From: a bacterium
GTDB lineage: Bacteria > Bdellovibrionota_C > UBA2361 > RFPC01
Assembly: GCA_009926305.1 (NCBI GenBank)
Contig: RFPC01000001.1
Span: 1 to 64,000, forward strand
DNA length: 64,000 nucleotides
Direction of reading: 5' to 3'
Shown: one piece after another, positions 38,382 through 51,594 of the stretch
Numbering within the stretch: position 1 is the first letter of the stretch
How the letters are laid out: each line of letters begins with the position of its first letter
The notes under the pieces: model-generated
Databases searched by the model: none
What the model saw: only the letters and a program-made list of their open reading frames with translations
What the model was told of the DNA's origin: nothing
Made by a program: the position numbers and the translations under genes

Positions 38382-39278
38382 CTAACTCTTTTCGGCAATT
38401 AACAACGTGCCTGATCCCTCATTGGTAAAGATCTCGTTGAGGAACGCATCTGGTTTTAAGCCGTTTGCAATGTGAGCTCTTGGAACTCCCCGTTTCAAAA
38501 CCTCAATACAGTTTTGAATTTTTGTATGCATTCCACCCTGAACGGTACCATCAGTCAGGAGTTCTTCTGCTTGGGTCAGTGTGATTTCTGAAAGTAGCGA
38601 GGTCGGGTCATTTATGTCACGCATCACTCCATCGACGGGCGAGAGCAAACAATACTTTTGAGCTCCAACAGCTTCTGCAATTCCTGCTGCTAGTGTATCA
38701 GCATTAATGTTTAAGATTCTGCCCGTAGTATCTGAAACGAGTGAGCAGATAACAGGGACAAACCCCTTTTCTAAAAGAGAATACAGCACGTGAGGATCAA
38801 TTCCTTTCAGGTCTGCAACTTCACCAAAATCAACATTCTGTTCCTGCTGAGTCTCAACATTTGATACCGTTTGAGGAGGGCGCTTAAAGGCTTTTGCGAG
38901 TCCTCCATCAATCCCACTCATTCCAATCGCTGGAACTTCCTCTGCATTCAACGCCGCAACAAGATCGGTATTTACTGTTCCAGCAAAACTCATCTTTGCA
39001 GCTTCCAGCATCCCAGGAGAAGTAATTCGCCTTCCATTAATAAACTCAGACTCGATCTGCAACCTATCGGCTAGAGCATTTGCCTGAGGACCACCGCCAT
39101 GCACAATGATAAGCTGTATGCCCAGCTGGTAGGCAAGCGAGAGCTGCTCCATGAGATTTTTGAGGTGTTTGCCTGGTTTGCATATCTCACCCCCTAACTT
39201 AATCACGAATATTTTCCCCTTATAGGCTCGTATATAGGGAATTGCGGTCTTTAAGAGTTGTAAATCTACTTCAGTCAT
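38382..39278 (-). CDS. argB: Acetylglutamate (possibly succinylglutamate) kinase
   Basis: Second step of arginine synthesis, phosphorylating N-acyl-glutamate. Amino acid kinase fold with FVIKLGGEICK, the glycine-rich IIVHGGGPQANALADRL, NGRRITSPGMLEAAKMSFAG and ILNINADTLAAGIAEAVGA. 298 aa. It overlaps argF' by eight bases and is the last gene of the leftward operon. Because the adjacent transcarbamylase looks succinyl-specific, this kinase probably acts on the succinyl form, as reported for Bacteroidetes; that is inference from context. Confidence 0.93.
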   Translation of the reverse strand: MTEVDLQLLKTAIPYIRAYKGKIFVIKLGGEICKPGKHLKNLMEQLSLAYQLGIQLIIVHGGGPQANALADRLQIESEFINGRRITSPGMLEAAKMSFAGTVNTDLVAALNAEEVPAIGMSGIDGGLAKAFKRPPQTVSNVETQQEQNVDFGEVADLKGIDPHVLYSLLEKGFVPVICSLVSDTTGRILNINADTLAAGIAEAVGAQKYCLLSPVDGVMRDINDPTSLLSEITLTQAEELLTDGTVQGGMHTKIQNCIEVLKRGVPRAHIANGLKPDAFLNEIFTNEGSGTLLIAEKS

Positions 39279-40287
39279 TTTGTATCACTCCATCGTCATT
39301 AGTAAAAATCCATTCAAGAATAGAGAGCTGTGCCCAGAGTCGATTCTCAGCCTGTTCAATGATTGCCGAATTTTTGTGGTCAAGAGCCGCATCAGTCGCT
39401 ACGAGGTTTCTCCGTATCGGCATGCAATGTAAGAGGCGCGTCTCTTCTTGTAGCAGAGGCGCATCCACCATCCAGTGCGCGTGCCGTTCGAAGTCTTGGC
39501 GTTGCCGCTCTGGCTGATTATAGAGCGAGCTCGCTCCCCAGCTTTTTACATAAACGATTTTTGTATCATCTGGTAAGCTGCTCGGATCATGGCTTTGGGC
39601 GAATGTGCCTCCGAGGAATGTGGTGGTTTCTTTCGCGTACTGAATAAACTCAGTGTGCAATTCATACCCCTCTGGAGCACACACCGTGATATTCATGCCA
39701 AGGTGTGCTGCAGCGAAAATCGCTGAGTGGGGAACGGCAAGCGGCAAGGGTTTGATGTGCGGAGCCCATCTGAGACAGAAATTCTTTGCCTTCGGTTCGG
39801 TGCAGATTTCTTTGATTGTCAACATGTCAGCTAACATCTGACACGGATGCTCAACCGCTGATTCAAGGCTCATAACTGGAACAGTTGACCAATCCTCGAA
39901 GCGGCGTAAGGTGGTGTCTTGCACATCTTCCGTAACTGACTGAAGTTTTGCGAAGCTTCGAAGTGCAAGCGCATCCACATAGCGAGACATCACTCGTACC
40001 GCATCTTTCAAATGTTCAGGTCTGTCACTATCCATTCGAATGCCGAGCTGCTCTTCAAAAGCCCAAGAAGATTCTCCTGGGGTAATTGAAAGTGCTTGGC
40101 CTCCACATCGAGCCATTGCGGCCTCGAAAGAAAGTTTGGTTCTCAAAGATGGATTCATAAATACCATTCCGAGAATTTTCCCTGAAAGGTCAGGATATCG
40201 CCGTTCATATTTCATCAGAGACGCTGCTTGGAGCAGTGAGAGCAGTGTATCAAGAGAACATCGCTTGGCTTGTGTATAGTGCTTCAT
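39271..40287 (-). CDS. argF': N-succinylornithine carbamoyltransferase (ArgF' family)
   Basis: Transfers carbamoyl phosphate to N-acylated ornithine, giving N-acyl-citrulline. The carbamoyl-phosphate motif is FMNPSLRTKLSF. The acyl-ornithine-specific features, which ordinary ArgF lacks, are Trp75 in ESSWAFEEQ, the HPCQMLAD block, KSWGA, and HCMPIRRN. Aligned by eye with Xanthomonas acetylornithine transcarbamylase, its specificity residue Glu92 corresponds to Pro90 here, as in the Bacteroides fragilis succinyl enzyme (also Pro90). The start is ATG 40287 (338 aa), overlapping argD by four bases; upstream codons in the same frame belong to the argD region. Confidence 0.88.
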   Translation of the reverse strand: MKHYTQAKRCSLDTLLSLLQAASLMKYERRYPDLSGKILGMVFMNPSLRTKLSFEAAMARCGGQALSITPGESSWAFEEQLGIRMDSDRPEHLKDAVRVMSRYVDALALRSFAKLQSVTEDVQDTTLRRFEDWSTVPVMSLESAVEHPCQMLADMLTIKEICTEPKAKNFCLRWAPHIKPLPLAVPHSAIFAAAHLGMNITVCAPEGYELHTEFIQYAKETTTFLGGTFAQSHDPSSLPDDTKIVYVKSWGASSLYNQPERQRQDFERHAHWMVDAPLLQEETRLLHCMPIRRNLVATDAALDHKNSAIIEQAENRLWAQLSILEWIFTNDDGVIQND

Positions 40288-41459
40288 GTCAGGCCTTCTC
40301 CAATGTCGGCTAGCGCCTCGGCCAGTTGTTTCGCATGCGTTTCCTCGACCTGATAAGAGGGAAGAAGGCGCATCACGTTCGAGACGCCACTTGTTCCCGC
40401 AAGAATTCTTTTGTCTCTGAGTCCAGTCACGACGCGTTGTGCTGGTGCTGATAAGACGAGACCAAGGAGACAGCCATGTCCGCGTATCTCTTGCACAAGA
40501 GAGCAGCACGAAAGCTCGCTGCGGATCGCGTCTTCAAATCTTTGGACTCGTTCCATGAGATGTTCATTCGAGATGATTGATATTGTTTCAAGAACGGCGG
40601 CACTCGCTAGTGGTCCTCCACCAAAGGTGGATCCGAGATCTCCAAGTGCAATTTCTTGAGCAATCTCGGCGGTAAAAAGAACTGCTCCGACCGGGAATCC
40701 ATTTGCTAGGCTTTTTGCTGTTGTGCTCATGTCCGCTTCAATGCCGTGCGTGAGCATTGAACTATCTCGGTGACCATGTCCATTAACATACGGGACTCCT
40801 GTGCGGCCTACTCCTGTTTGCACCTCATCAAAAATAAGAAGTGTTCCCGTTTTGCTCGTCTGCTGTCGAAGCGCAATAAGGAATTCATTCTCGATCGTAT
40901 TAACTCCACCGATACTCTGAATGGGTTCAATAATCACGGCTGCACATGTCTGATCAATCTTCTCAAGCTCAGCGATATTATTCGGTTCTAGGAAGAGGAC
41001 ATTCCCAGTCCACCCTGGTGTTTTTGCATGCCACGATGGGTCGTCTGTAGCAGCAGCAGCCATTGTGGTTCTGCCGTGCCATCCCCCTTTGAATGCCACG
41101 ATTCGCGAACGTCCCGTGAGTTGAACAGCCAGTTTGAGTGCGTTCTCGTTCGCTTCAGCACCAGAATTGCAAAAGAATAGGGAACTCATTCTGTTGTTCG
41201 CAAAGGTGAGTAGAGCTTCGGCGGCTTTGTTCCGAATCGAGAGGCGAGTAAGATTCGAGTAGAAGAAGAGTTTTTCTGATTGGCAAGCAATTGCTTGCTG
41301 AATTCGAGGATGATTGTGTCCGAGTGCACATACGGCGTGCCCGCCGTAAAGGTCGAGATATGTATTTCCATCAGAACCAGTCACATATGCCCCGCTTCCG
41401 TGGGTAATTTCAAAGGGGTACTGGGGATATGTATTTACGAGAGGAGCTATCGCATCCAT
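40284..41459 (-). CDS. argD: Acetylornithine (N-acylornithine) aminotransferase
   Basis: PLP enzyme of class III converting N-acyl-glutamate semialdehyde to N-acyl-ornithine. It has YLDLYGGHAVCALGHNHP, the phosphate-binding NSGAEANENALKLA, the aspartate in LLIFDEVQTGVGRTG, and the PLP lysine in TTAKSLANGFPVGAV. 391 aa, ATG 41459 with AAGGA upstream. It is coupled to argF' by an ATGA overlap and lies 23 bases after argC. Confidence 0.94.
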   Translation of the reverse strand: MDAIAPLVNTYPQYPFEITHGSGAYVTGSDGNTYLDLYGGHAVCALGHNHPRIQQAIACQSEKLFFYSNLTRLSIRNKAAEALLTFANNRMSSLFFCNSGAEANENALKLAVQLTGRSRIVAFKGGWHGRTTMAAAATDDPSWHAKTPGWTGNVLFLEPNNIAELEKIDQTCAAVIIEPIQSIGGVNTIENEFLIALRQQTSKTGTLLIFDEVQTGVGRTGVPYVNGHGHRDSSMLTHGIEADMSTTAKSLANGFPVGAVLFTAEIAQEIALGDLGSTFGGGPLASAAVLETISIISNEHLMERVQRFEDAIRSELSCCSLVQEIRGHGCLLGLVLSAPAQRVVTGLRDKRILAGTSGVSNVMRLLPSYQVEETHAKQLAEALADIGEGLT

Positions 41460-41482: not shown

Positions 41483-42559
41483 TTAGTAGGGACGAGTGCC
41501 AGGGATCATCAAGCCGCGTTCCTCCGGGAGCCCGCACATCAGGTTAAGATTTTGAATGGCTTGTCCAGCCATGCCCTTAACCAGGTTATCAATTGCAGCC
41601 ATGACAATGAGCTTTTTATCATCTATGGCTACCGAGAGGTCACAAAAGTTTGTGCCGACTACCGGTTGTAGATGTGGTGGCGATTTGCGAAAGCGAATAA
41701 ATGGATGTTGGGCGCTGAAAGCCTCGAAGGCGTCAACGACTTGATCCGCATTCAGACTCGTCTTGTTGTGCACATGCGTTGTAACGTAGATGCCACGTGC
41801 AATCGGAAGGCTTTGTGCAATAAAGCTCGTCTCGCACGATGGTAATCCGATGTGTTTCAGGCATGAACTGATCTCTGGTACGTGCTGGTGAGAGAGAGGC
41901 TTATATGCCGTATAGCTCGCATGCCGGGTTGGGTGATGAGTGCCCTCTTTTAGTTCTCGACCTGAGCCAGAAGAACCTGTTTTTGCGTCGAATGCTATGA
42001 AGGCTGGCTTGATCAGAGAGGCAATCGGAGCCAGTGACAGGATTGAGGCAGTGGCCAGACATCCTGGGTTGGCAATATGAGATGCAGTTGAGACTGAATT
42101 GCTCGCGAGTTCGGTAAGCCCATAGACGAACTTTGTCGCTAACTCCTCATTACGAGGCGTTCCAGGGTAGAATTGCTGATGTAAATCTTGTGCCGATAGT
42201 CGATGCGCTCCTGAGAGATCGATAAACTTCATATTGAGCAGTGAGCGTGTCGGCTCTAGAGCTTCTCCTGTTTTACCGCTCACTTCATGTGGAAGAGCAC
42301 TAATGATTATGCGATGTGGATGCTCTTTAATCGCATCGATATCTAACTCACTTGAGAAACGAAGCGTATCATAGAATCCAAGCAAGTGCGGGTGGATATC
42401 TGTTACGAGTTTTCCGACCTGAGTTCGCGAATTGATTGAAACAACTTTCACATCAGGGTGGTGTGCCAAGAGTCGAAGCAGCTCTCCTGCGCCATACCCA
42501 GTGCCGCCGAAGATTGCTACTGCAACTGTTGGAGTCGTCAATGTATCGTCAATAGTCAT
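41483..42559 (-). CDS. argC: N-acyl-gamma-glutamyl-phosphate reductase
   Basis: NADPH-dependent reduction of N-acyl-glutamyl phosphate. The dinucleotide motif is FGGTGYGAGELLRLL, the catalytic cysteine is in HIANPGCLATASILSLAP, and the substrate region is KTGSSGSGRELKEGTHHPTRH. 358 aa from ATG 42559; it begins five bases after the stop of the P-loop gene, so the two are tightly coupled. Confidence 0.94.
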   Translation of the reverse strand: MTIDDTLTTPTVAVAIFGGTGYGAGELLRLLAHHPDVKVVSINSRTQVGKLVTDIHPHLLGFYDTLRFSSELDIDAIKEHPHRIIISALPHEVSGKTGEALEPTRSLLNMKFIDLSGAHRLSAQDLHQQFYPGTPRNEELATKFVYGLTELASNSVSTASHIANPGCLATASILSLAPIASLIKPAFIAFDAKTGSSGSGRELKEGTHHPTRHASYTAYKPLSHQHVPEISSCLKHIGLPSCETSFIAQSLPIARGIYVTTHVHNKTSLNADQVVDAFEAFSAQHPFIRFRKSPPHLQPVVGTNFCDLSVAIDDKKLIVMAAIDNLVKGMAGQAIQNLNLMCGLPEERGLMIPGTRPY

Positions 42560-42563
42560 AATA

Positions 42564-43655
42564 TTACTCTGTTGATGGAATACACGGTGTCGCTTTTTCT
42601 TGAATACATTGATTCGCAAAACTGATCAGTTCTTCTGTATTCTTTCTGGCATTGATAGCTCGAACTCCGAGTTCGCGTTCAATGTAGTTAATCCCAGCAA
42701 GGTTATCTGTTGTTGGACCTGATATGATTTGAGGACGCAGCCCGAATCGTTCCTTTAAGAGTTCTACTCCGCCCCAGGCTCCTACTGGATCATTCGCGCA
42801 TAAGACAAACGTGGTAGCCATCTGCATGAGCGTAGCGTCTGAAAGAATCTCTTTCACACCATACGTTCCCAGAATTCCATCTCCGAGTTCTGCTACGATG
42901 ACATCCACCCCTTCTTCAATCAGTGTATGAAAGACGAGGTGGGCCGTCGGAACAGCGGATTCGCTATCGGTGGTAACAACGCCAGCATCGATAAACGTGT
43001 GTGCAGTATCTGCCCCGTAATCCTCCATCTCAAGAATATCCCGTAATAGAGAAACTCCAGTCAGCTTGCAAGCACCAACAGTAAGCCCTGAGTTTTTCAA
43101 GCCGCGTATCATGCGTGCGCAAACACTCGTTTTCCCCGCCTGCATGCAAGTGCCTGCAACGAAAACTACTGGTACTTTCCTTGAGAAGTTTATTTCTTGC
43201 CCATTCGGCCATTGTAATGCACCGTGTTGTGCCACGTGAGCGGGCTCTCCCTGGCGGCTTTCAAACTGAGGAAAAACGAGGATGCTTCCCAGCACCTCGA
43301 AGTCAAAAGGTTTGCCTACTTGTGGGTTTGCAGAAGTACATTCTCCGATTACTCCCCCCATATTAAGGACCTGGAGCCTATCCCCAATCGAGATTTTATC
43401 GGGGACCCTTCCTGAATACCCATGCAAGGCATCTCGGTGCCCGAGGGTGCCAGCGAGTACTTCTCCAGCATGCAGCCTGATTCGGCGTCCAGAGAGGTTT
43501 TCAATTTCATTATAGGTTGTTTTTTCTCCGTGGATCTTGCCAGCAAGTACGTATCCCGGTTTGGCAATAACTTCCTCAGTGATTCGTGCTTCACGTGTAA
43601 GTGAGACGTTTTTAGTGGATGATGATATTTTATCAAGTATTATTCTTCGCATCAT
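42564..43655 (-). CDS. P-loop protein of unknown function embedded in the arginine operon (DUF1611-like C-terminal domain)
   Basis: 363 aa in two parts. Residues about 25-130 are a beta-rich domain full of glycine turns (GYVLAGKIHGEKT; RIRLHAGEVLAGTLGHRD). Residues about 160-355 are a nucleotide-binding domain with P-loop GTCMQAGKT (168-176), a KLTG switch, a Walker-B-like strand ending in Glu257 (VIVAELGDG) and CANDP near 287. The second part resembles dethiobiotin-synthetase/DUF1611 folds; one DUF1611 protein, DgcN, has been described as a D-glutamate N-acetyltransferase. Position between argR and argC, five bases from argC, implies a role in arginine synthesis or its control. It could supply the otherwise missing N-acylglutamate. 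Two adjacent ATGs (43655, 43652) are possible starts. Confidence 0.7.
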   Translation of the reverse strand: MMRRIILDKISSSTKNVSLTREARITEEVIAKPGYVLAGKIHGEKTTYNEIENLSGRRIRLHAGEVLAGTLGHRDALHGYSGRVPDKISIGDRLQVLNMGGVIGECTSANPQVGKPFDFEVLGSILVFPQFESRQGEPAHVAQHGALQWPNGQEINFSRKVPVVFVAGTCMQAGKTSVCARMIRGLKNSGLTVGACKLTGVSLLRDILEMEDYGADTAHTFIDAGVVTTDSESAVPTAHLVFHTLIEEGVDVIVAELGDGILGTYGVKEILSDATLMQMATTFVLCANDPVGAWGGVELLKERFGLRPQIISGPTTDNLAGINYIERELGVRAINARKNTEELISFANQCIQEKATPCIPSTE

Positions 43656-43668
43656 TATCTCCAGCCAG

Positions 43669-44094
43669 TTACAGAAGTTTCTGAGTTAAGAAATCAAGAG
43701 CGGGTGCTTGTTGAGACGGATCATCAAAGGCGAGAAAAATTGTGTCATCCCCAGCGACTGTTCCAATGAGCCCTTCAATAGACACGGCATCAATCTCAGC
43801 TGCCACTCGTTGTGCCGCACCGAGTTTTGTTCGTACAACAATCATGTAGGGGCCAGCAGGTATGATAGCATCAGTAAGACCTTCAGGGAGTTTTTCCTTT
43901 AATGCAGAGGGCGGAAGATAACGACCTGAAAATTTTATTATCCCCAGTTCTTGTAAGTCTCGGCTGATGCTTGGTTGTGCCGCTGAGAATCCAGCTGCTT
44001 TCATCGCATCACAGATCTCTTGTTGCGAGTAGTAAGGGGACTCCGTTAAGAGTTCTACAAGGGCTGTTTGACGGGCTTCTTTAGAATCTGGCAT
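43669..44094 (-). CDS. argR: Arginine repressor ArgR
   Basis: 141 aa. N-terminal winged helix-turn-helix (YSQQEICDAMKAAGFSAAQPSISRD, with the recognition serine-arginine pair SISRD) and a C-terminal arginine-binding/hexamerisation domain (IEGLIGTVAGDDTIFLAF; GDD contacts arginine in the family). The start is ATG 44094 with AAGGA eight bases upstream; the frame is open 16 codons further. First gene of the leftward operon and next to two ARG boxes, so it is likely autoregulated. Confidence 0.93.
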   Translation of the reverse strand: MPDSKEARQTALVELLTESPYYSQQEICDAMKAAGFSAAQPSISRDLQELGIIKFSGRYLPPSALKEKLPEGLTDAIIPAGPYMIVVRTKLGAAQRVAAEIDAVSIEGLIGTVAGDDTIFLAFDDPSQQAPALDFLTQKLL

Positions 44095-44144
44095 CAGGTC
44101 AATCCTTCTTGTGGTCTTGGTCTGGAGAGGATAATCCCCCATAT

Positions 44145-44180
44145 TAAATATTTATTCAATATATTTTGCATATTTATTCA
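44145..44180. promoter_or_regulatory. Tandem ARG boxes (ArgR operator)
   Basis: Box 1 TAAATATTTATTCA (44145-44158) and box 2 TGCATATTTATTCA (44167-44180) each match 13 of 14 positions of the E. coli ARG-box core TGAATWWWWATTCA. They are 22 bp apart, two helical turns, as expected for a hexameric ArgR. They sit in the only gap between divergent argR and argG and should control both operons. Confidence 0.85.
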
Positions 44181-44226: not shown

Positions 44227-45411
44227 ATGAATAAAGTCGTTGTTGCCTACAGCGGGGGGCTCGATACGAACTACTGCGTGAAGTATCTTCAAGAAAAGGG
44301 ATATGAGGTTATCACCGTAACGGTGAATACGGGCGGATTTTCGCCTGAGGAACTCTCTCGGATTGAATCAGTTGCTTATGAGGCTGGGGCGACTCGACAC
44401 GTTACTCTTGATGCCGTCCAAGAGGTGTTCGAACGGTTTGGCACGAGAATTATTCAGGGGAATATACTACGGGGTGGTGTATACCCGTTGGTGGTAGGAG
44501 CTGAACGAGTTATTCAAGCAGAAAAAATCGTAGAGATTGCAAAAGAGATTGATGCAATCGCAGTAGCACACGGCTCAACAGGAGCTGGAAACGATCAGGT
44601 TCGATTTGACGTCACCTTTCAAACACTGGCACCTGAGCTGGAAGTGATTGCGCCCATCAGAGAGCTTCGACTGACTCGAGAGGAGGAGACGGAGTACTTG
44701 AAAGCGCGTGGCCTTGAAATTTCTGCTGCGAAAAAGAAGTACTCAATCAATCAAGGAGTTTTTGGTGTGACCATTGGAGGAGGTGAGACCCACGACCCGT
44801 GGCAAACAGTTCCTGAAGAGGCATACGTTCTGACCCGTTCGCTTGCAAGGGTGAGTGATGCTCCACGTGAGGTGGTGGTGGGATTTGAGAAGGGAGTCCC
44901 TGTCACTCTCGATGGCACCGATATGGCTGGGCACGAGATCCTCGCCATGCTGAATGCGATTGGGGGCGAGTATGGCTACGGGAGAGGCGTTCATGTCGGC
45001 GACACGATTCTTGGAATAAAGGGACGGATTGCGTTTGAAGCACCAGGGATGTTAGCGCTCATCCGAGCCCATCAGGAGCTTGAAAAGATTGTCCTCAGTA
45101 AGAGCCAACTCGAATGGAAGCAGACCGTTGCCCAGACTTATGGCACGTTCATGCACGAAGCGAAGTGGTATGAACCGCTCATGAGAGATCTGGAAGCGTT
45201 CTTTGATTCTTCACAACAGAAAGTCACAGGGTTAGCGCGTCTCCGGTACGAGAAGGGGCACTGCATTATCACTGGTGTTCAGGCTGATAAATCAGCCCTC
45301 TCTGCGGGAACGCTCTACGGGGAGGAGTCCTCTCTCTGGAGTGGAGAAGAAGCCCGTGGTTTCTCAAAGATTTACGGCATGGGGTCTGCCATCTTGCATC
45401 GGATCGGGTAA
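44227..45411 (+). CDS. argG: Argininosuccinate synthase
   Basis: Joins citrulline and aspartate with ATP. The N-type ATP pyrophosphatase motif VVAYSGGLDTNYCVKYL is at residues 5-21. VNTGGFSPEEL and HGSTGAGNDQVRFD are recognisable, and the sequence style resembles the Bacteroidetes form rather than the E. coli form. 394 aa; AGAGGAG precedes ATG 44227. First gene of the rightward arginine operon, directly after the ARG boxes. Confidence 0.95.
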   Translation: MNKVVVAYSGGLDTNYCVKYLQEKGYEVITVTVNTGGFSPEELSRIESVAYEAGATRHVTLDAVQEVFERFGTRIIQGNILRGGVYPLVVGAERVIQAEKIVEIAKEIDAIAVAHGSTGAGNDQVRFDVTFQTLAPELEVIAPIRELRLTREEETEYLKARGLEISAAKKKYSINQGVFGVTIGGGETHDPWQTVPEEAYVLTRSLARVSDAPREVVVGFEKGVPVTLDGTDMAGHEILAMLNAIGGEYGYGRGVHVGDTILGIKGRIAFEAPGMLALIRAHQELEKIVLSKSQLEWKQTVAQTYGTFMHEAKWYEPLMRDLEAFFDSSQQKVTGLARLRYEKGHCIITGVQADKSALSAGTLYGEESSLWSGEEARGFSKIYGMGSAILHRIG

Positions 45412-45452: not shown

Positions 45453-46955
45453 GTGGTCAGTAAGACAGTCTCTGAGTTTGTTGTTTCACCCCAGCAGATG
45501 CAGCTTGATATGAAGATGGTTGCCTCAGATATCTGGGGAACAAGAGCACATGTGTTGATGCTTGCACGAACGAAAATAGTTTCGCAAAGTTCTGCAGTAG
45601 CAATTCTGCAGGCGCTGGCGGACATTGAGCGGTTGAACGAGCAAGGGAATTTTTCGATTGATCCAAATCGAGGAGCACAGCTTACGCTCGAAAAAGAGAT
45701 CGTCGAACGGGCAGGAGAGAAAGCTGGTCTATCAGCGCATACCGCGCGGAGCCGTAACGACCAGGTGATGGTAACGGAGCTCCTCTTCTTGCGGGAGGAA
45801 GCGTGTGAACTTGCGATACAGTTAGAGCATGTAATCAAGCAGCTCATAACCTTTGCAGAAGAGCATATTGATTGGGTGATGCCCGGGTATACCCACATGC
45901 AGCCAGGGAAACCAACAACGGTTGCACAGTGGTGTCTTATGTACTGTGGGGGGTTTGTTCGTATTCATAAAGCGCTTTTCTCGCTCTTATCGCGCTATGA
46001 TCAGTGCCCTCTTGGCTCAGTAGAATCATTCGGTACTTCTTGGCCTATTGACCGCGAGTATACGGCTGAGCTTCTTGGATTTGAAAAGGTGTGGGAAGTG
46101 CCACTTGATGCGATCAGTCACCGAGGCTTTTTCCAGTACGAGTTGCTGCAGATACTTTCCGTTGGTGCGATAGAGCTTTCAAAGTTTGCAACCGATACCT
46201 TACAGTATGCGACGTTTGAATATGGATTTCTCGAGTTGGGAGACTCTGTGGCACAACGACTTCACCCAATTACGGGAAGCTCAGTCATGGCACAGAAGAA
46301 GAATCCCGATGCCCTCGAATTACTTCGAGCATCTGGGAATCAGGTCGCAGGCTCGATGCTTGCAGGCTTTGAGCTCCTTTCAGGACTTCCAGCCGGATAC
46401 AATCGAGATGCAAGAGAGTTAAAAGAATACGTGGAACTCGGGCTGAGGAAGTTCAAAACTGGGCTGGGAGTGCTCACAGAAGTACTCGGGAGCATGCGCT
46501 TTCACCGTGAGCGTATGGAAGTGCTCGTGAAGCAGAACTATTCCTTAACGACAGACGTAGCTGATTTTGTTTCGCAGACGACTGGTCTGCCGTATCGGCT
46601 CGTGTATAAGATTGTAGGGCAGGCAGTGAACGATCTCATGGAGAGAGGTCTTCCCTTGGAAGACCTTCGGGAGTCAGATCTGGTGCGTTATGCCGAGGAG
46701 CTCGGCACTTCGCTCAGTGTGAATCCAGAGGACCTCAAAGAGGTCCTGAAGCCTCAAGTGGCTCTATCTCGGAGAAAGCACCGTGGGGGACCAAGTGAGG
46801 AGGCTACCAAGCTCTCTGTTGAGCTTTTCGTGAAGGAGTGGGAAGCGTGCAAGGGGGCCCGTGAGGGTGTCCGTCTCAGAATCCAAGAAGCTGTCCATCG
46901 GACTGCGAGTGAAGTGGCTCGTGTTCTTGGGGAGAGTGAAAGAGTTTCAGAATGA
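45453..46955 (+). CDS. argH: Argininosuccinate lyase
   Basis: Last pathway step, splitting argininosuccinate into arginine and fumarate. Fumarase-fold signature TGSSVMAQKKNPD, plus HTARSRNDQV and GYTHMQPGKPT. 500 aa is somewhat longer than the usual 460, with an extra C-terminal region (VSRRKHRGG-type sequence to the end). The start is GTG 45453, with AAAGGAG five bases upstream. Overlaps the next gene by four bases. Confidence 0.94.
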   Translation: MVSKTVSEFVVSPQQMQLDMKMVASDIWGTRAHVLMLARTKIVSQSSAVAILQALADIERLNEQGNFSIDPNRGAQLTLEKEIVERAGEKAGLSAHTARSRNDQVMVTELLFLREEACELAIQLEHVIKQLITFAEEHIDWVMPGYTHMQPGKPTTVAQWCLMYCGGFVRIHKALFSLLSRYDQCPLGSVESFGTSWPIDREYTAELLGFEKVWEVPLDAISHRGFFQYELLQILSVGAIELSKFATDTLQYATFEYGFLELGDSVAQRLHPITGSSVMAQKKNPDALELLRASGNQVAGSMLAGFELLSGLPAGYNRDARELKEYVELGLRKFKTGLGVLTEVLGSMRFHRERMEVLVKQNYSLTTDVADFVSQTTGLPYRLVYKIVGQAVNDLMERGLPLEDLRESDLVRYAEELGTSLSVNPEDLKEVLKPQVALSRRKHRGGPSEEATKLSVELFVKEWEACKGAREGVRLRIQEAVHRTASEVARVLGESERVSE

Positions 46956-48070
46956 ATGTAATCGAAAAGCTACAGGCTCTGATTCAGATACCTTCAGAGA
47001 GTTCCCATGAAGAAGCAATAGCACAGTGGCTCTTTCGTTATCTGAAAGATGCTGGTGTTCAGCCGGAGCAAAAAGAGAATAATGTTTTCTGTCGCATCCC
47101 CGGAAAAAATCAAACGAAAGCAATAATCTTCAATGGACATACGGATACCGTTTCGGCTGGAACGCTGAGTGAATGGGGTTATCCCCCCGTGGGAGCAGAT
47201 GCTGGTGTAGTTGCAGATGGTCGAGTATATGGGCTGGGCGCGAGTGATATGAAAGCGAGCCTTGCCGCTTTTTTAGAGCTTGTGGATCGATATCGAGATG
47301 AAGTGCCGCCGCTTGATCTATTCTTTTCGTTCGTGCGAGAGGAGGAGACGACAGGACGGGGGTCTCGCGAATATGTGCAATATTTTCAAGAGAACTGGCA
47401 GAGTCGTTATGAAGATGTCATTTGCATTGTTGGTGAGCCAACGGGATTTGAGTACATAGAACTTGGAAATCGTGGAGTGCACCATGTTGAGCTTGTCATT
47501 GAAGGGGTGGCTTGCCATGCCTCTCAAGCAGCGGGGAAGACCACCAACGCTCCTGAACTTGCATTTGAAGCGATGAGCCGAATAGAGGAGCTCAAGAAGG
47601 AGTGGGGGAAGTCATTTGTGCATGAGCAGTTGGGCAAGCCAGCGGTAACGATGACAGGGATCCGCTCAAGTGAGAGTTCTGTGAATAGTGTTCCGTCGTC
47701 TGTGTTACTTCGGTGGGATATTCGAACTACGCCAGAACTACATCCTCAGGTGAAGAGTCTTATGGAGGATGCGCTCGGCGATCTTGGGAAGGTGGTAGGA
47801 TTACGTGATCCGTGCCAGTGTGCATTTTGTCCGATAGATAGTTCGCTTGTCCGTGCGTTTGAAGCGGCACATCCCGCAGTTGAGCACCGAATTGCACGAG
47901 GGGGGAACGATTGTGGTAGTTTTATCGAAGTGGGGATTCCTGCGGTGACATTTGGTCCTGGCAAAAAAGAAGTCATTCACCAGATGGATGAGTATGCTCC
48001 TGTGCAAGAGCTTGAGCGAGCGTGTGAGGAGTACGACAAGGTTATTCAGGCATTTGCTTCTTGTCGATGA
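46952..48070 (+). CDS. M20-family deacylase (N-acyl-citrulline or N-acyl-ornithine deacylase)
   Basis: 372 aa zinc-dependent metallopeptidase-like enzyme of the ArgE/DapE group. Metal ligands are in IIFNGHTDTVSAG and GASDMKASLAAF; the catalytic glutamates are in FVREEETTGRGS; the dimerisation-lid region contains ACHAS; FGPGKKEVIHQMDE is the final metal-binding histidine region. Coupled to argH (ATGA overlap), it should remove the acyl group. With a succinyl-specific ArgF', the expected substrate is N-succinylcitrulline, the counterpart of ArgE' in Xanthomonas. Annotation as DapE is an alternative but fits the context less well. Confidence 0.85.
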   Translation: MNVIEKLQALIQIPSESSHEEAIAQWLFRYLKDAGVQPEQKENNVFCRIPGKNQTKAIIFNGHTDTVSAGTLSEWGYPPVGADAGVVADGRVYGLGASDMKASLAAFLELVDRYRDEVPPLDLFFSFVREEETTGRGSREYVQYFQENWQSRYEDVICIVGEPTGFEYIELGNRGVHHVELVIEGVACHASQAAGKTTNAPELAFEAMSRIEELKKEWGKSFVHEQLGKPAVTMTGIRSSESSVNSVPSSVLLRWDIRTTPELHPQVKSLMEDALGDLGKVVGLRDPCQCAFCPIDSSLVRAFEAAHPAVEHRIARGGNDCGSFIEVGIPAVTFGPGKKEVIHQMDEYAPVQELERACEEYDKVIQAFASCR

Positions 48071-48203: not shown

Positions 48204-49217
48204 ATGAACACACATCAGAAAGTAACAACCGAGAACCTACCAGCGGGGAATTCCTGTGGCCCGTTCGCTCGCTGTTTCTTCTCGAACATGGTGGACTATG
48301 CAGGCCTTTTCCCTCCAGCTGGTCTTCCGCTGGAAGTGGCAGTCAAGAATTTTCTTAAGTACCGAGAGTCTTCATCCAGTTGGATCCTCTCTCGGTTCGT
48401 TATTACTGCCGAATCTTTCCGTTCGCTTCAAGACGATCTTCTGGCTCATTTCTCTGCGGACAATCCATTTCGGATTTCTCTCCTTGTCGGAGATTCTGAT
48501 AGCGAAATTGCTGAAGTCTTCTCTCTTGTCGAACGCAGTGAGGGGCGTGTTCTGTTGGATATGATTGAGTGTCGAATTCAAGAGCATAGCAATAGTCTTG
48601 ACGTGTTGCGTAACAAACATGAATTTCTTATCAGTAGTCACTTCGCAGAAGGTTTATCCTCAATATTCTTCGAGCTCGCTCTTCACTCGGACTGGGAGGA
48701 GAGCATGAAAAAAGTCGTAGAGGAAATAGCAGCGAGGAATAGTGAGTCGAGGCTGCTTTCTGGATTTAAGTTGCGTTGCGGTGGAATACAAAACCATCTC
48801 ATCCCTTCCCCGGAGAGCATAGCGATAACCCTTGAAACGGTTTCGGCTCACGCAGTTCCTATCAAGTTTACGGCAGGGTTACATCATCCCTTTCGACACG
48901 CTCCACGCTCAGAGGAGGGAGGACGTACAGAGTTAGTTCATGGATTTTTTAATGTCTACTTCGCCGCACTCGTTGCTTTTCTTCGCAATGAGCCAGCCTC
49001 AGCACTTGTTCCTATTCTCAGTGCTACCGTTCTCAGTGCTACCGAGGATAACGTGGAACTGCCAGTCTTTGACGCATCCTCGGTCTCTTGGTTTGGGCAT
49101 CGTCTCCTGTTTTCTGAGATAGAGAAGGCTCGGCACGAGCTTGTGCTTTCGTTCGGGAGCTGTAGTTTTGAGGAGCCGGTGATGGATGCAGAGAATCTCG
49201 GTTGGATGAAACAATAA
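48204..49217 (+). CDS. Unknown protein of the tyrosine-catabolism cluster
   Basis: 337 aa, soluble, no signal peptide. Landmarks are FSNMVDYAGLFPPAGLPLEVAV near the N-terminus and GFKLRCGG (about 192-199) followed by PIKFTAGLHHPFR (about 225-237), resembling the strands of a TIM-barrel-like enzyme with basic and aromatic active-site residues. I have no named function. It precedes fumarylacetoacetase by 14 bases and HPPD follows, so it probably serves tyrosine or homogentisate breakdown. A 15-bp tandem duplication lies within it (49015-49044). The ribosome binding site is weak. Confidence 0.7.
   Translation: MNTHQKVTTENLPAGNSCGPFARCFFSNMVDYAGLFPPAGLPLEVAVKNFLKYRESSSSWILSRFVITAESFRSLQDDLLAHFSADNPFRISLLVGDSDSEIAEVFSLVERSEGRVLLDMIECRIQEHSNSLDVLRNKHEFLISSHFAEGLSSIFFELALHSDWEESMKKVVEEIAARNSESRLLSGFKLRCGGIQNHLIPSPESIAITLETVSAHAVPIKFTAGLHHPFRHAPRSEEGGRTELVHGFFNVYFAALVAFLRNEPASALVPILSATVLSATEDNVELPVFDASSVSWFGHRLLFSEIEKARHELVLSFGSCSFEEPVMDAENLGWMKQ
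49015..49044 (+). repeat. 15-bp perfect tandem duplication in coding sequence
   Basis: TTCTCAGTGCTACCG occurs twice back to back and duplicates the peptide around ILSAT/VLSAT without changing frame. Confidence 0.9.
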
Positions 49218-49231
49218 GGGAGCAGAAATTC

Positions 49232-50500
49232 GTGGTACAAAAGTCATTTGTTAAGGTTGCAGAGAGCTCTCACTTTCCGATTCAGAACCTTCCGTATGGA
49301 GTGTTTTCTCGTGATGGAGGCGCACCGCATATCGGGGTTGCCATCGGAGAAGAGATACTTGATCTGACAGTACTCCAACAAAAAGGAGTTCTGGAGGGAG
49401 ACTATTTTCAATCGCCTACCCTGAATCGGTTTATGCAGGAGGGGAAAAGTGAGTGGCAAAAAGTAAGGCGTACAATACAACAGTTGCTTGATGAGAGTTG
49501 TGCAATCATCCAGTCAGATGCCTCTTTATTGAAAGAGGTTCTTGTAAAGCAGAGTGAAGTTCAGCTCTTACTCCCGATCGAAATTGGAGACTATACTGAT
49601 TTTTACTCCTCGAGAGAACACGCAACAAATGTCGGGAGCATGTTCAGAGATCCGAATAACGCCCTCCTTCCGAACTGGTTACATGTTCCCGTAGCATATC
49701 ACGGACGGGCAAGTTCGGTTGTGATCTCTGGGACCGATATCCGTAGACCATGTGGACAAACGAAAGCTGATGATAAGGAGCTCCCGTCTTTTGGGCCGTG
49801 TCGACTCATGGACTATGAGCTCGAACTTGGACTGATCATCGGGAAAGAGAACGCACTCGGTGAGCCGATTTCAATACAAGAGGCAAACGATTATATATTC
49901 GGCATGGTGCTCGTGAATGACTGGAGCGCGCGTGATATTCAGAAATGGGAATACGTACCACTCGGCCCATTCCTTGCGAAGAACTTCGCAACTTCTATCT
50001 CCCCGTGGATCGTTACTATGGACGCCTTGAAAGAGTTTAAGGCTGCTGGTCCCAAGCAAGATCCTGAGCCGCTTCCGTATTTGCGTCAGGGGGGAGAGAA
50101 TGGATTTGACATCCAGTTGGAGGCATATTTAACGACTCCTGATCTCAGGCAGCCTGAAGTGATTACCAGAACGAATGCGCGCAATCTGTACTGGAGCCCT
50201 GCCCAACAGATTACTCATCATGCTAGTAATGGCTGTAGTTTACGGGTAGGGGATTTAATAGCCTCAGGAACTATCAGTGGAACGGATCCTGATTCTTATG
50301 GCTCGCTATTAGAGGTAACATGGAAGGGGACTCGCCCAATTCAACTTCCTTCAGGGGAAACGCGTACCTTCTTAAGAGATGGAGACACCTTAACCCTCTC
50401 AGGGTATGCAACAGGGAATGGCTATACTATAGGGTTTGGAGAAGTGAGCGGGAAGATCTTGCCAGCATGCATTGATGAACAACTGATTGTTGAGAGATAG
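49232..50500 (+). CDS. fahA: Fumarylacetoacetase
   Basis: Hydrolyses fumarylacetoacetate to fumarate and acetoacetate, the final step of tyrosine breakdown. The N-terminal domain begins SFVKVAESSHFPIQNLPYGV. The catalytic C-terminal domain has DFYSSREHATNVG, FGPCRLMDYELELGLIIG, NDWSARDIQKWEYVPLGPF and SGTISGTDPDSYGSLLE, with the expected metal-binding acids. GTG 49232 is preferred from family alignment and GGGAG upstream; the frame extends to 49202. 422 aa. Confidence 0.94.
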   Translation: MVQKSFVKVAESSHFPIQNLPYGVFSRDGGAPHIGVAIGEEILDLTVLQQKGVLEGDYFQSPTLNRFMQEGKSEWQKVRRTIQQLLDESCAIIQSDASLLKEVLVKQSEVQLLLPIEIGDYTDFYSSREHATNVGSMFRDPNNALLPNWLHVPVAYHGRASSVVISGTDIRRPCGQTKADDKELPSFGPCRLMDYELELGLIIGKENALGEPISIQEANDYIFGMVLVNDWSARDIQKWEYVPLGPFLAKNFATSISPWIVTMDALKEFKAAGPKQDPEPLPYLRQGGENGFDIQLEAYLTTPDLRQPEVITRTNARNLYWSPAQQITHHASNGCSLRVGDLIASGTISGTDPDSYGSLLEVTWKGTRPIQLPSGETRTFLRDGDTLTLSGYATGNGYTIGFGEVSGKILPACIDEQLIVER

Positions 50501-50511
50501 GAGGAAGAGAC

Positions 50512-51594
50512 ATGAGTGATAATCCACTACGCATGAAACGCTTTGGTCCCGTTACGTTATATGTTGAAGATGCACGGGGTGAAGCTGAGCGACTATCCGA
50601 ATTAATGGGAATGGATATTGCGTATGTCCCTGAAAAGGAGGAGGAGCCTGTCTATGGCATTGAAGCGGAGGATGTTCTCTTCATTCTTGATAGTAGAGAT
50701 GATGCGTCTCTCTTAGCGCGACAATCAGGCAACTTTATTCGTGAAATCGGTATTCGGGTTGAGAATACAAAGGAGGCTCTCACAGAAATCGGGAAGAGAA
50801 CAGACCAACCTTCAGGCATTTGTGATGTCACTGGAGTGGGACATCTCAAGGCACCACATGACGGTGGGCTATTTTTCCGTTTTCTTGAAGATGATCAAAC
50901 ACCTTATTTGGGGATGACTCCAAACCCTCATCTTCAGCGCGCCTCCTCGCATGCATTTCAGCGAATTGATCATATCGTAACGAACACACAGAAGATTCTC
51001 CCCGTGATTGATTTCATGAGAGATGTTTTTGGAATGAAAAAAGTGAATGAGTTTACTATTCGAGTAGAAGCGGACGAATTTATGGCCTCGCTCTACAGTG
51101 AAGTCATGGGCTTGTATGGAACGGAAGAGGCAATTCTTTTCCCGGTTAATGAACCTCTAGCGGGAGATGACGAGTCTCAAATTCCAGCTCAACTGAGAGA
51201 AATGGGAAGGAGCCACGCACAGCATATAGCGCTGGCCACTGATAACATCATTGGCTCTATTCAGAGCCTCAGAGCTCGGGGTCTTGGATTCCTAGAGTTT
51301 CGGAATCAAAAGCATGCAGAGTGTTACTATGATGAGGTGCCAAAGAGGCTTGGAGATATCACTCCAGAAGAGGCATTCGATACACTGAAGCGACTTGGGA
51401 TTTTAGTGGACAAGTGTGGAGAGGGATATTTACTTCAGTTATTTTCTAAGCGGATGTTTCCAGGGAGAAGTGTGCCATTTATTGAGATCATTCAGCGGGC
51501 AAGTGATGTAATCGGATGTTTCGGTGATGGAAACTTTGCTGCGTTAGCCGAGTCATTAGAATACTCAATGCGTTCAGAAAGCCTGGAATCCTAG
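50512..51594 (+). CDS. hppD: 4-hydroxyphenylpyruvate dioxygenase
   Basis: Fe(II) enzyme converting 4-hydroxyphenylpyruvate to homogentisate. Two vicinal-oxygen-chelate domains; the iron ligands are His154 (RIDHIV), His238 (AQHIAL) and Glu325 (FIEII). The closing GCFGDGNFAALAESLE helix is the family C-terminal gate. 360 aa. It starts 11 bases after fumarylacetoacetase, preceded by AGGAGG. The intervening homogentisate dioxygenase and isomerase are not in this window. Confidence 0.92.
   Translation: MSDNPLRMKRFGPVTLYVEDARGEAERLSELMGMDIAYVPEKEEEPVYGIEAEDVLFILDSRDDASLLARQSGNFIREIGIRVENTKEALTEIGKRTDQPSGICDVTGVGHLKAPHDGGLFFRFLEDDQTPYLGMTPNPHLQRASSHAFQRIDHIVTNTQKILPVIDFMRDVFGMKKVNEFTIRVEADEFMASLYSEVMGLYGTEEAILFPVNEPLAGDDESQIPAQLREMGRSHAQHIALATDNIIGSIQSLRARGLGFLEFRNQKHAECYYDEVPKRLGDITPEEAFDTLKRLGILVDKCGEGYLLQLFSKRMFPGRSVPFIEIIQRASDVIGCFGDGNFAALAESLEYSMRSESLES

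Follow-up and report, generated by a model that had tools for sequence, protein, structure and literature searches.

The succinylated arginine pathway is documented mainly in Bacteroidetes. There and in Caldithrix the N-acylglutamate synthase (BT3761, Cabys_1732) is a GNAT of about 190 aa, encoded in the order argR - synthase - argG - argC - argD - argF' and partnered with a succinylornithine-type transcarbamylase; in Bacteroidetes operons the GNAT occupies the slot between argR and argG/argC. A Bacteroides GNAT of this arginine-operon type was inferred by GapMind to be an N-succinylglutamate synthase (PMC7311316), and according to a review of 2015 the enzyme that succinylates glutamate had yet to be identified (PMC4490483). 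Most Holophagaceae were reported in 2024 to lack an N-acetylglutamate synthase (PMC11561045). The first arginine step seems to be missing in many genomes, and the structurally unrelated synthase proposed here would, if the reading is true, fill this gap across many phyla.

In this work we analyzed an arginine cluster in a window of 64,000 nucleotides (positions 1 to 64,000 of contig RFPC01000001.1, Bdellovibrionota_C) and a 363-aa protein encoded in it, referred to below as X. It is quite probable that X is the first arginine enzyme here, a non-GNAT N-acylglutamate synthase and most likely an N-succinyl-L-glutamate synthase. That X supplies the missing first step is very probable from its slot beside argC, its mutual exclusion with ArgJ, the GNAT-free operons and the gap already reported for taxa that have X. 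From this context we infer that X is the catalyst, that succinyl is donated and how the reaction would proceed. X resembles the Bacteroidetes/Caldithrix synthase in its slot and in its transcarbamylase partner, but the latter GNAT is unrelated to the 350-aa beta plus P-loop protein. Likewise, ArgJ, ArgA, the short NAGS and the CG3035-type NAGS have the proposed step, glutamate N-acylation, in common with X but are unrelated to it in sequence and fold.

Arginine locus of the window

The X gene (42564..43655, minus strand) is an open reading frame of 363 codons for amino acids. It lies 13 bp after the stop codon of argR (43669..44142, minus strand), whose product matches the Pfam models Arg_repressor and Arg_repressor_C above cut-off. 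At its 3' end TAA is followed by TATT and then by the likely ATG of argC at 42559. Thus, the initial annotation placed X correctly between argR and argC, but the spacing to argC is 4 bp in the sequence and not five bases. On the same minus strand follow argC itself, encoding N-acylglutamyl-phosphate reductase (41483..42559; TIGR01850, 314 bits, cut-off 234), argD for acylornithine aminotransferase (40284..41459), argF' for a knotted transcarbamylase with the N-succinylornithine signature (39271..40287; NF003384, 345 bits, cut-off 288) and argB for a 298-aa N-acylglutamate kinase without a fused GNAT domain (38382..39278). The divergent plus-strand genes are argG (argininosuccinate synthase, 44227..45411), argH (argininosuccinate lyase, 45453..46955) and a gene for an M20 deacylase of the ArgE/DapE family (46952..48070), a likely desuccinylase that scored 170 bits with TIGR01910, 138 with TIGR01900 and 111 with TIGR01892, all below cut-off. 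The argD, argB, argG and argH genes were assigned by profile matches. The gene content of the cluster agrees with that described initially.

Two ARG-box-like sites, TAAATATTTATTCA (44145..44158) and TGCATATTTATTCA (44167..44180), were found by pattern match between argR and the divergent argG. The pair agrees with a control of the two operons by ArgR; the pattern was picked after inspection of the sequence, and its zero chance expectation is optimistic. Beyond the arginine genes, the region 48204-51594 encodes a 337-aa protein without a Pfam match, followed by fumarylacetoacetase- and HPPD-like genes, and this gene order is also kept in a congener (G002, locus L026).

Predicted fold of X and its relation to DUF1611

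No Pfam or NCBIfam model among those searched matched X above cut-off, and X belongs to an uncharacterised family without a named function. PDB sequence searches gave nothing significant. The AlphaFold model built from 42 sequences (mean pLDDT 95, pTM 0.92) replaced an earlier model from 8 sequences (pTM 0.60). In the predicted structure the N-terminal domain (residues about 1-127) is all beta except for one helix turn, and residues about 160-355 form an alpha/beta P-loop domain of the BioD/HypB type, with the Walker A motif GTCMQAGKT at residues 168-176. Both the beta-rich N-terminal domain and the P-loop domain noticed earlier are therefore seen in the sequence and in the model.

Foldseek matched the P-loop domain to HypB (E 1.6e-6) and BioD, dethiobiotin synthetase (E 2.2e-6), with probability 1.0; the TM-score against the top matches was about 0.38 on the query, with alignments of about 200-260 columns. 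For the beta N-domain no match stood out in the fold search, a viral fold search with X gave weak matches only, and a test for the GNAT fold found no GNAT match, the fold being beta plus P-loop. By fold and Walker A motif, X falls within the SIMIBI superfamily of P-loop NTPases (BioD/MobB/HypB-like). BioD, MobB and HypB are the closest relatives of its C-terminal domain in both sequence and fold and have the same GT-x4-GKT spacing; the GKT is invariant in the X family. The invariant residues of the family alignment include K9, Y48, E52, R57, R74 and N98 in the N-terminal part and R134, K175, T176, K197, D206, D212, E256, D259, D289, D317 and N335 beyond it. Each of the two domains contains polar invariant residues, which resembles the pattern of an enzyme. 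It should be mentioned that other superfamily members (L037:6105-7307 and L015) have apparently lost the Walker A lysine.

The initial annotation had compared X with DUF1611, to which the D-glutamate N-acetyltransferase DgcN belongs. The second part is correct: DgcN (NF041892) is a DUF1611 protein, with the family structures 7xrj, 2obn and 2g0t. DgcN acts on glutamate, and it has in common with X a P-loop C-terminal domain with a GT-x-GK core, which reads GKK in DgcN and GKT in X. The likeness of X itself to DUF1611 did not hold. X scored 13.3 bits against PF07755 (cut-off 25), and the best of 42 X orthologues reached E 2.4e-4. The DgcN model was absent from the NCBIfam families listed for these 42 orthologues, the window's X and the Myxococcus X, and hhalign of X with DUF1611/DgcN gave 8% probability (E 0.004) over the C-terminal part only. 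Furthermore, Myxococcus genomes contain both X and a separate true DgcN, and the window's genome contains no DUF1611 match. Membership of X in DUF1611/DgcN is thus rejected on the basis of Pfam, NCBIfam and hhalign, and this co-occurrence also speaks against it; at most, the two have in common a P-loop fold class. A literature search on Myxococcus NAGS and DUF1611 gave no paper that identifies X. Plasmid-borne X paralogues of Paracoccus (L149:3965-5017) and Sulfitobacter (L150:3902-4999), adjacent to ABC transporter ATP-binding genes, are annotated as DUF1611 though they score below the Pfam cut-off.

Distribution of X and of the known first enzymes

Full-length X orthologues were found in eight genomes of a set of 58 relatives, the window's own included, and all of them adjoin argC. 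When GTDB genomes were scanned, 156 relatives were found, and 80 loci were kept. They come from about 12 phyla or lineages: Bdellovibrionota, Myxococcota, Acidobacteriota, Planctomycetota, Armatimonadota, Elusimicrobiota, Gemmatimonadota, Gammaproteobacteria, Eiseniibacteriota, Verrucomicrobiota and two archaeal MAG lineages. Geothrix and other Holophagaceae are among the bearers of X. In 75 of the 80 loci, X is followed directly by argC in the same orientation; only 77 of the loci have downstream DNA, so that the ratio is 75 of 77: in L050, L099 and L116 the contig ends after X, and L105 and L118 have downstream DNA without argC. This arrangement is not due to chance. Upstream of X, the neighbour was argG in 70 loci, argR in six and argB in one. 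In the tree, X is set apart from its paralogues except for one very long-branched plasmid protein. The phyla are intermixed within X, which suggests that the operon has been passed between lineages. One Myxococcus-like arginine cluster comes from a record labelled Comamonas sp. KCTC 72670 (L077, BNCN01000006.1), which may be mislabelled.

X might instead be an auxiliary enzyme of the operon that catalyzes another reaction, e.g., carbamoyl phosphate supply or an aid to deacylation. Proteins with BioD-like folds act on carboxylates and CO2 by means of ATP, and such a fold was found for the P-loop domain. However, a separate M20 deacylase gene co-occurs with X in at least 48 of the 80 loci, X abuts argC, which belongs to the acylglutamate part of the pathway, and it is the first step that is missing; we regard this explanation as very improbable.

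Comparison with the known first enzymes revealed that ArgJ is absent from all eight relatives that have X and present in 27 of 31 without X, all with argC above cut-off (Fisher p 8e-6). Among 146 Myxococcota, X was found in 50 genomes, ArgJ in 56 and both in none (p 2e-14); these tests are not corrected for phylogeny, and Myxococcus is overrepresented. In another 49 X genomes we detected a single ArgJ, in a Woesearchaeota MAG, and a single short NAGS above cut-off, in a Diapherotrites MAG (E. coli, the positive control of the latter search, was detected). A search of the X operons with 20 GNAT queries found no GNAT.

The exclusion of ArgJ also bears on the alternative that X senses arginine or has a regulatory role, as a P-loop ATPase that modulates ArgR or ArgB. 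This role could be suggested by argR, which adjoins X in the window as well as in six further loci, but most loci have argG and not argR upstream. Mutual exclusion with ArgJ is not expected of a regulator, and the invariant polar residues in both domains also argue against it. There is little chance that X is a regulator.

Four relatives with argC have neither X nor ArgJ, and for two of these (G003 and G026) another known solution was found. G003, from the same family as the window's organism, has two LysX/ArgX-like ATP-grasp paralogues, which lie adjacent to each other beside argC/argB/argD homologues (L125:7086-10486) and point to probable LysW-type synthesis of arginine and lysine. In G026, a NAGS-type GNAT is located directly upstream of argC and overlaps its 5' end (L128:4792-6232); sister genomes have ArgJ. 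G010 is represented by a short contig, and in G035 (argC at C56:47842-48858) the search found no first arginine enzyme. The LysW-type arginine route was also considered but does not appear to be open to the window's organism: some relatives have a LysXYZ cluster, in which a LysX-like ATP-grasp gene adjoins a second argC, but only a single argC above cut-off is present in the window's genome, so that no LysY for this route is seen.

The absence of ArgJ, ArgA or a GNAT-type first enzyme from the window's cluster, pointed out in the initial annotation, was borne out. Whole-genome searches found no ArgJ and no match to its Pfam model PF01960, X included, and none of the nine GNATs of the genome came near the cut-offs of the ArgA, short-NAGS and CG3035 models. 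One of these, a divergent GNAT (L024) on contig C40 of the window's genome (G000), has to be weighed as the synthase, in which case X would have a different operon role. It is about 33% identical to GNATs of Bacteroidetes arginine operons and weakly matches PRK07757. In the tree, however, L024 falls outside the clade of arginine-operon GNATs (split 100/99, long branch), and an ABC transporter adjoins it. Four X genomes (G002, G007, G012, G032) are without it, and between the congeners G000 and G001 its identity is 40%, as against 70% for X. We consider it improbable that L024 is the synthase. The initial annotation had named a conventional synthase elsewhere in the genome as evidence against its proposal; L024, given its divergence and its place in the tree, answers to this only weakly, and there is no ArgJ. 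In another relative, G006, an L024-related GNAT gene is located between argG and argH.

Acyl group and proposed reaction

Three residues distinguish acetylornithine from succinylornithine transcarbamylases (PMC4581275). According to this rule, the succinylornithine enzymes have A/S/P/V/Q at Glu92, P at Asn185 and V/I/E at Lys302 in the numbering of the Xanthomonas enzyme (PMC4581275). The ArgF' of the window has P, P and V at these positions, and its best PDB match, 3l04, also has P at the Glu92 position in its chain. The full succinylornithine pattern was found in 57 of 65 distinct X-linked ArgF' homologues. The M20 deacylase of the window scored higher with DapE-type models than with those of acetylornithine deacetylase. 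Judging from these signatures, and from the GNAT in the corresponding slot of Bacteroidetes operons that is proposed to form N-succinylglutamate, the acyl group in the X pathway is probably succinyl.

The synthesis of N-acetylglutamate by X, and not of the N-succinyl compound, appears unlikely. It could account for some X-linked ArgF' that depart from the signature (Lys302 is kept in L027 and L045) and for the ordinary OTC in two X operons (relatives G034 and G037), in which the acyl group is unreadable. Yet the marks of the acetyl enzymes, Glu92 and Asn185 (PMC4581275), occur in none of the 65 X-linked knotted ArgF' homologues. Since succinyl is the likelier group, a failure of X to complement an E. 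coli argA mutant would be compatible with its being the synthase.

The function proposed initially, a glutamate acyltransferase, is well supported by genome context and is refined here to succinyl; a descent of X from DUF1611/DgcN is not supported. As an N-succinylglutamate synthase, X would acylate glutamate at its amino group, and its P-loop would bind either ATP or the phosphates of CoA. If ATP is used, the carboxylate (succinate) would be activated as an acyl phosphate and then transferred to the glutamate amine, as the BioD-like fold suggests; if CoA, the transfer would be direct from succinyl-CoA. We lean slightly toward X representing a new enzyme class, a P-loop and possibly ATP-dependent N-succinyl-L-glutamate synthase that starts the succinylated arginine pathway in several phyla, such as Myxococcota, Acidobacteriota, Elusimicrobiota, Gemmatimonadota, Planctomycetota, Gammaproteobacteria and others. 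If so, the arginine pathway through succinyl intermediates reaches beyond Bacteroidetes, predictions of auxotrophy would be corrected, and a large P-loop family would gain its first function. X is present in cultured species of Myxococcus and Geothrix and is directly testable there.

A distant X-like P-loop protein was also found in a phosphonate-type cluster of a Priestia megaterium plasmid (NZ_CP085446.1; L151:1682-10370), together with genes for an OTCase, two ATP-grasp amino-acid ligases, TPP enzyme subunits, an M20 peptidase, a luciferase-like monooxygenase and PEP mutase. This cluster gives a hint that the wider family may take part in the chemistry of capped amino acids.
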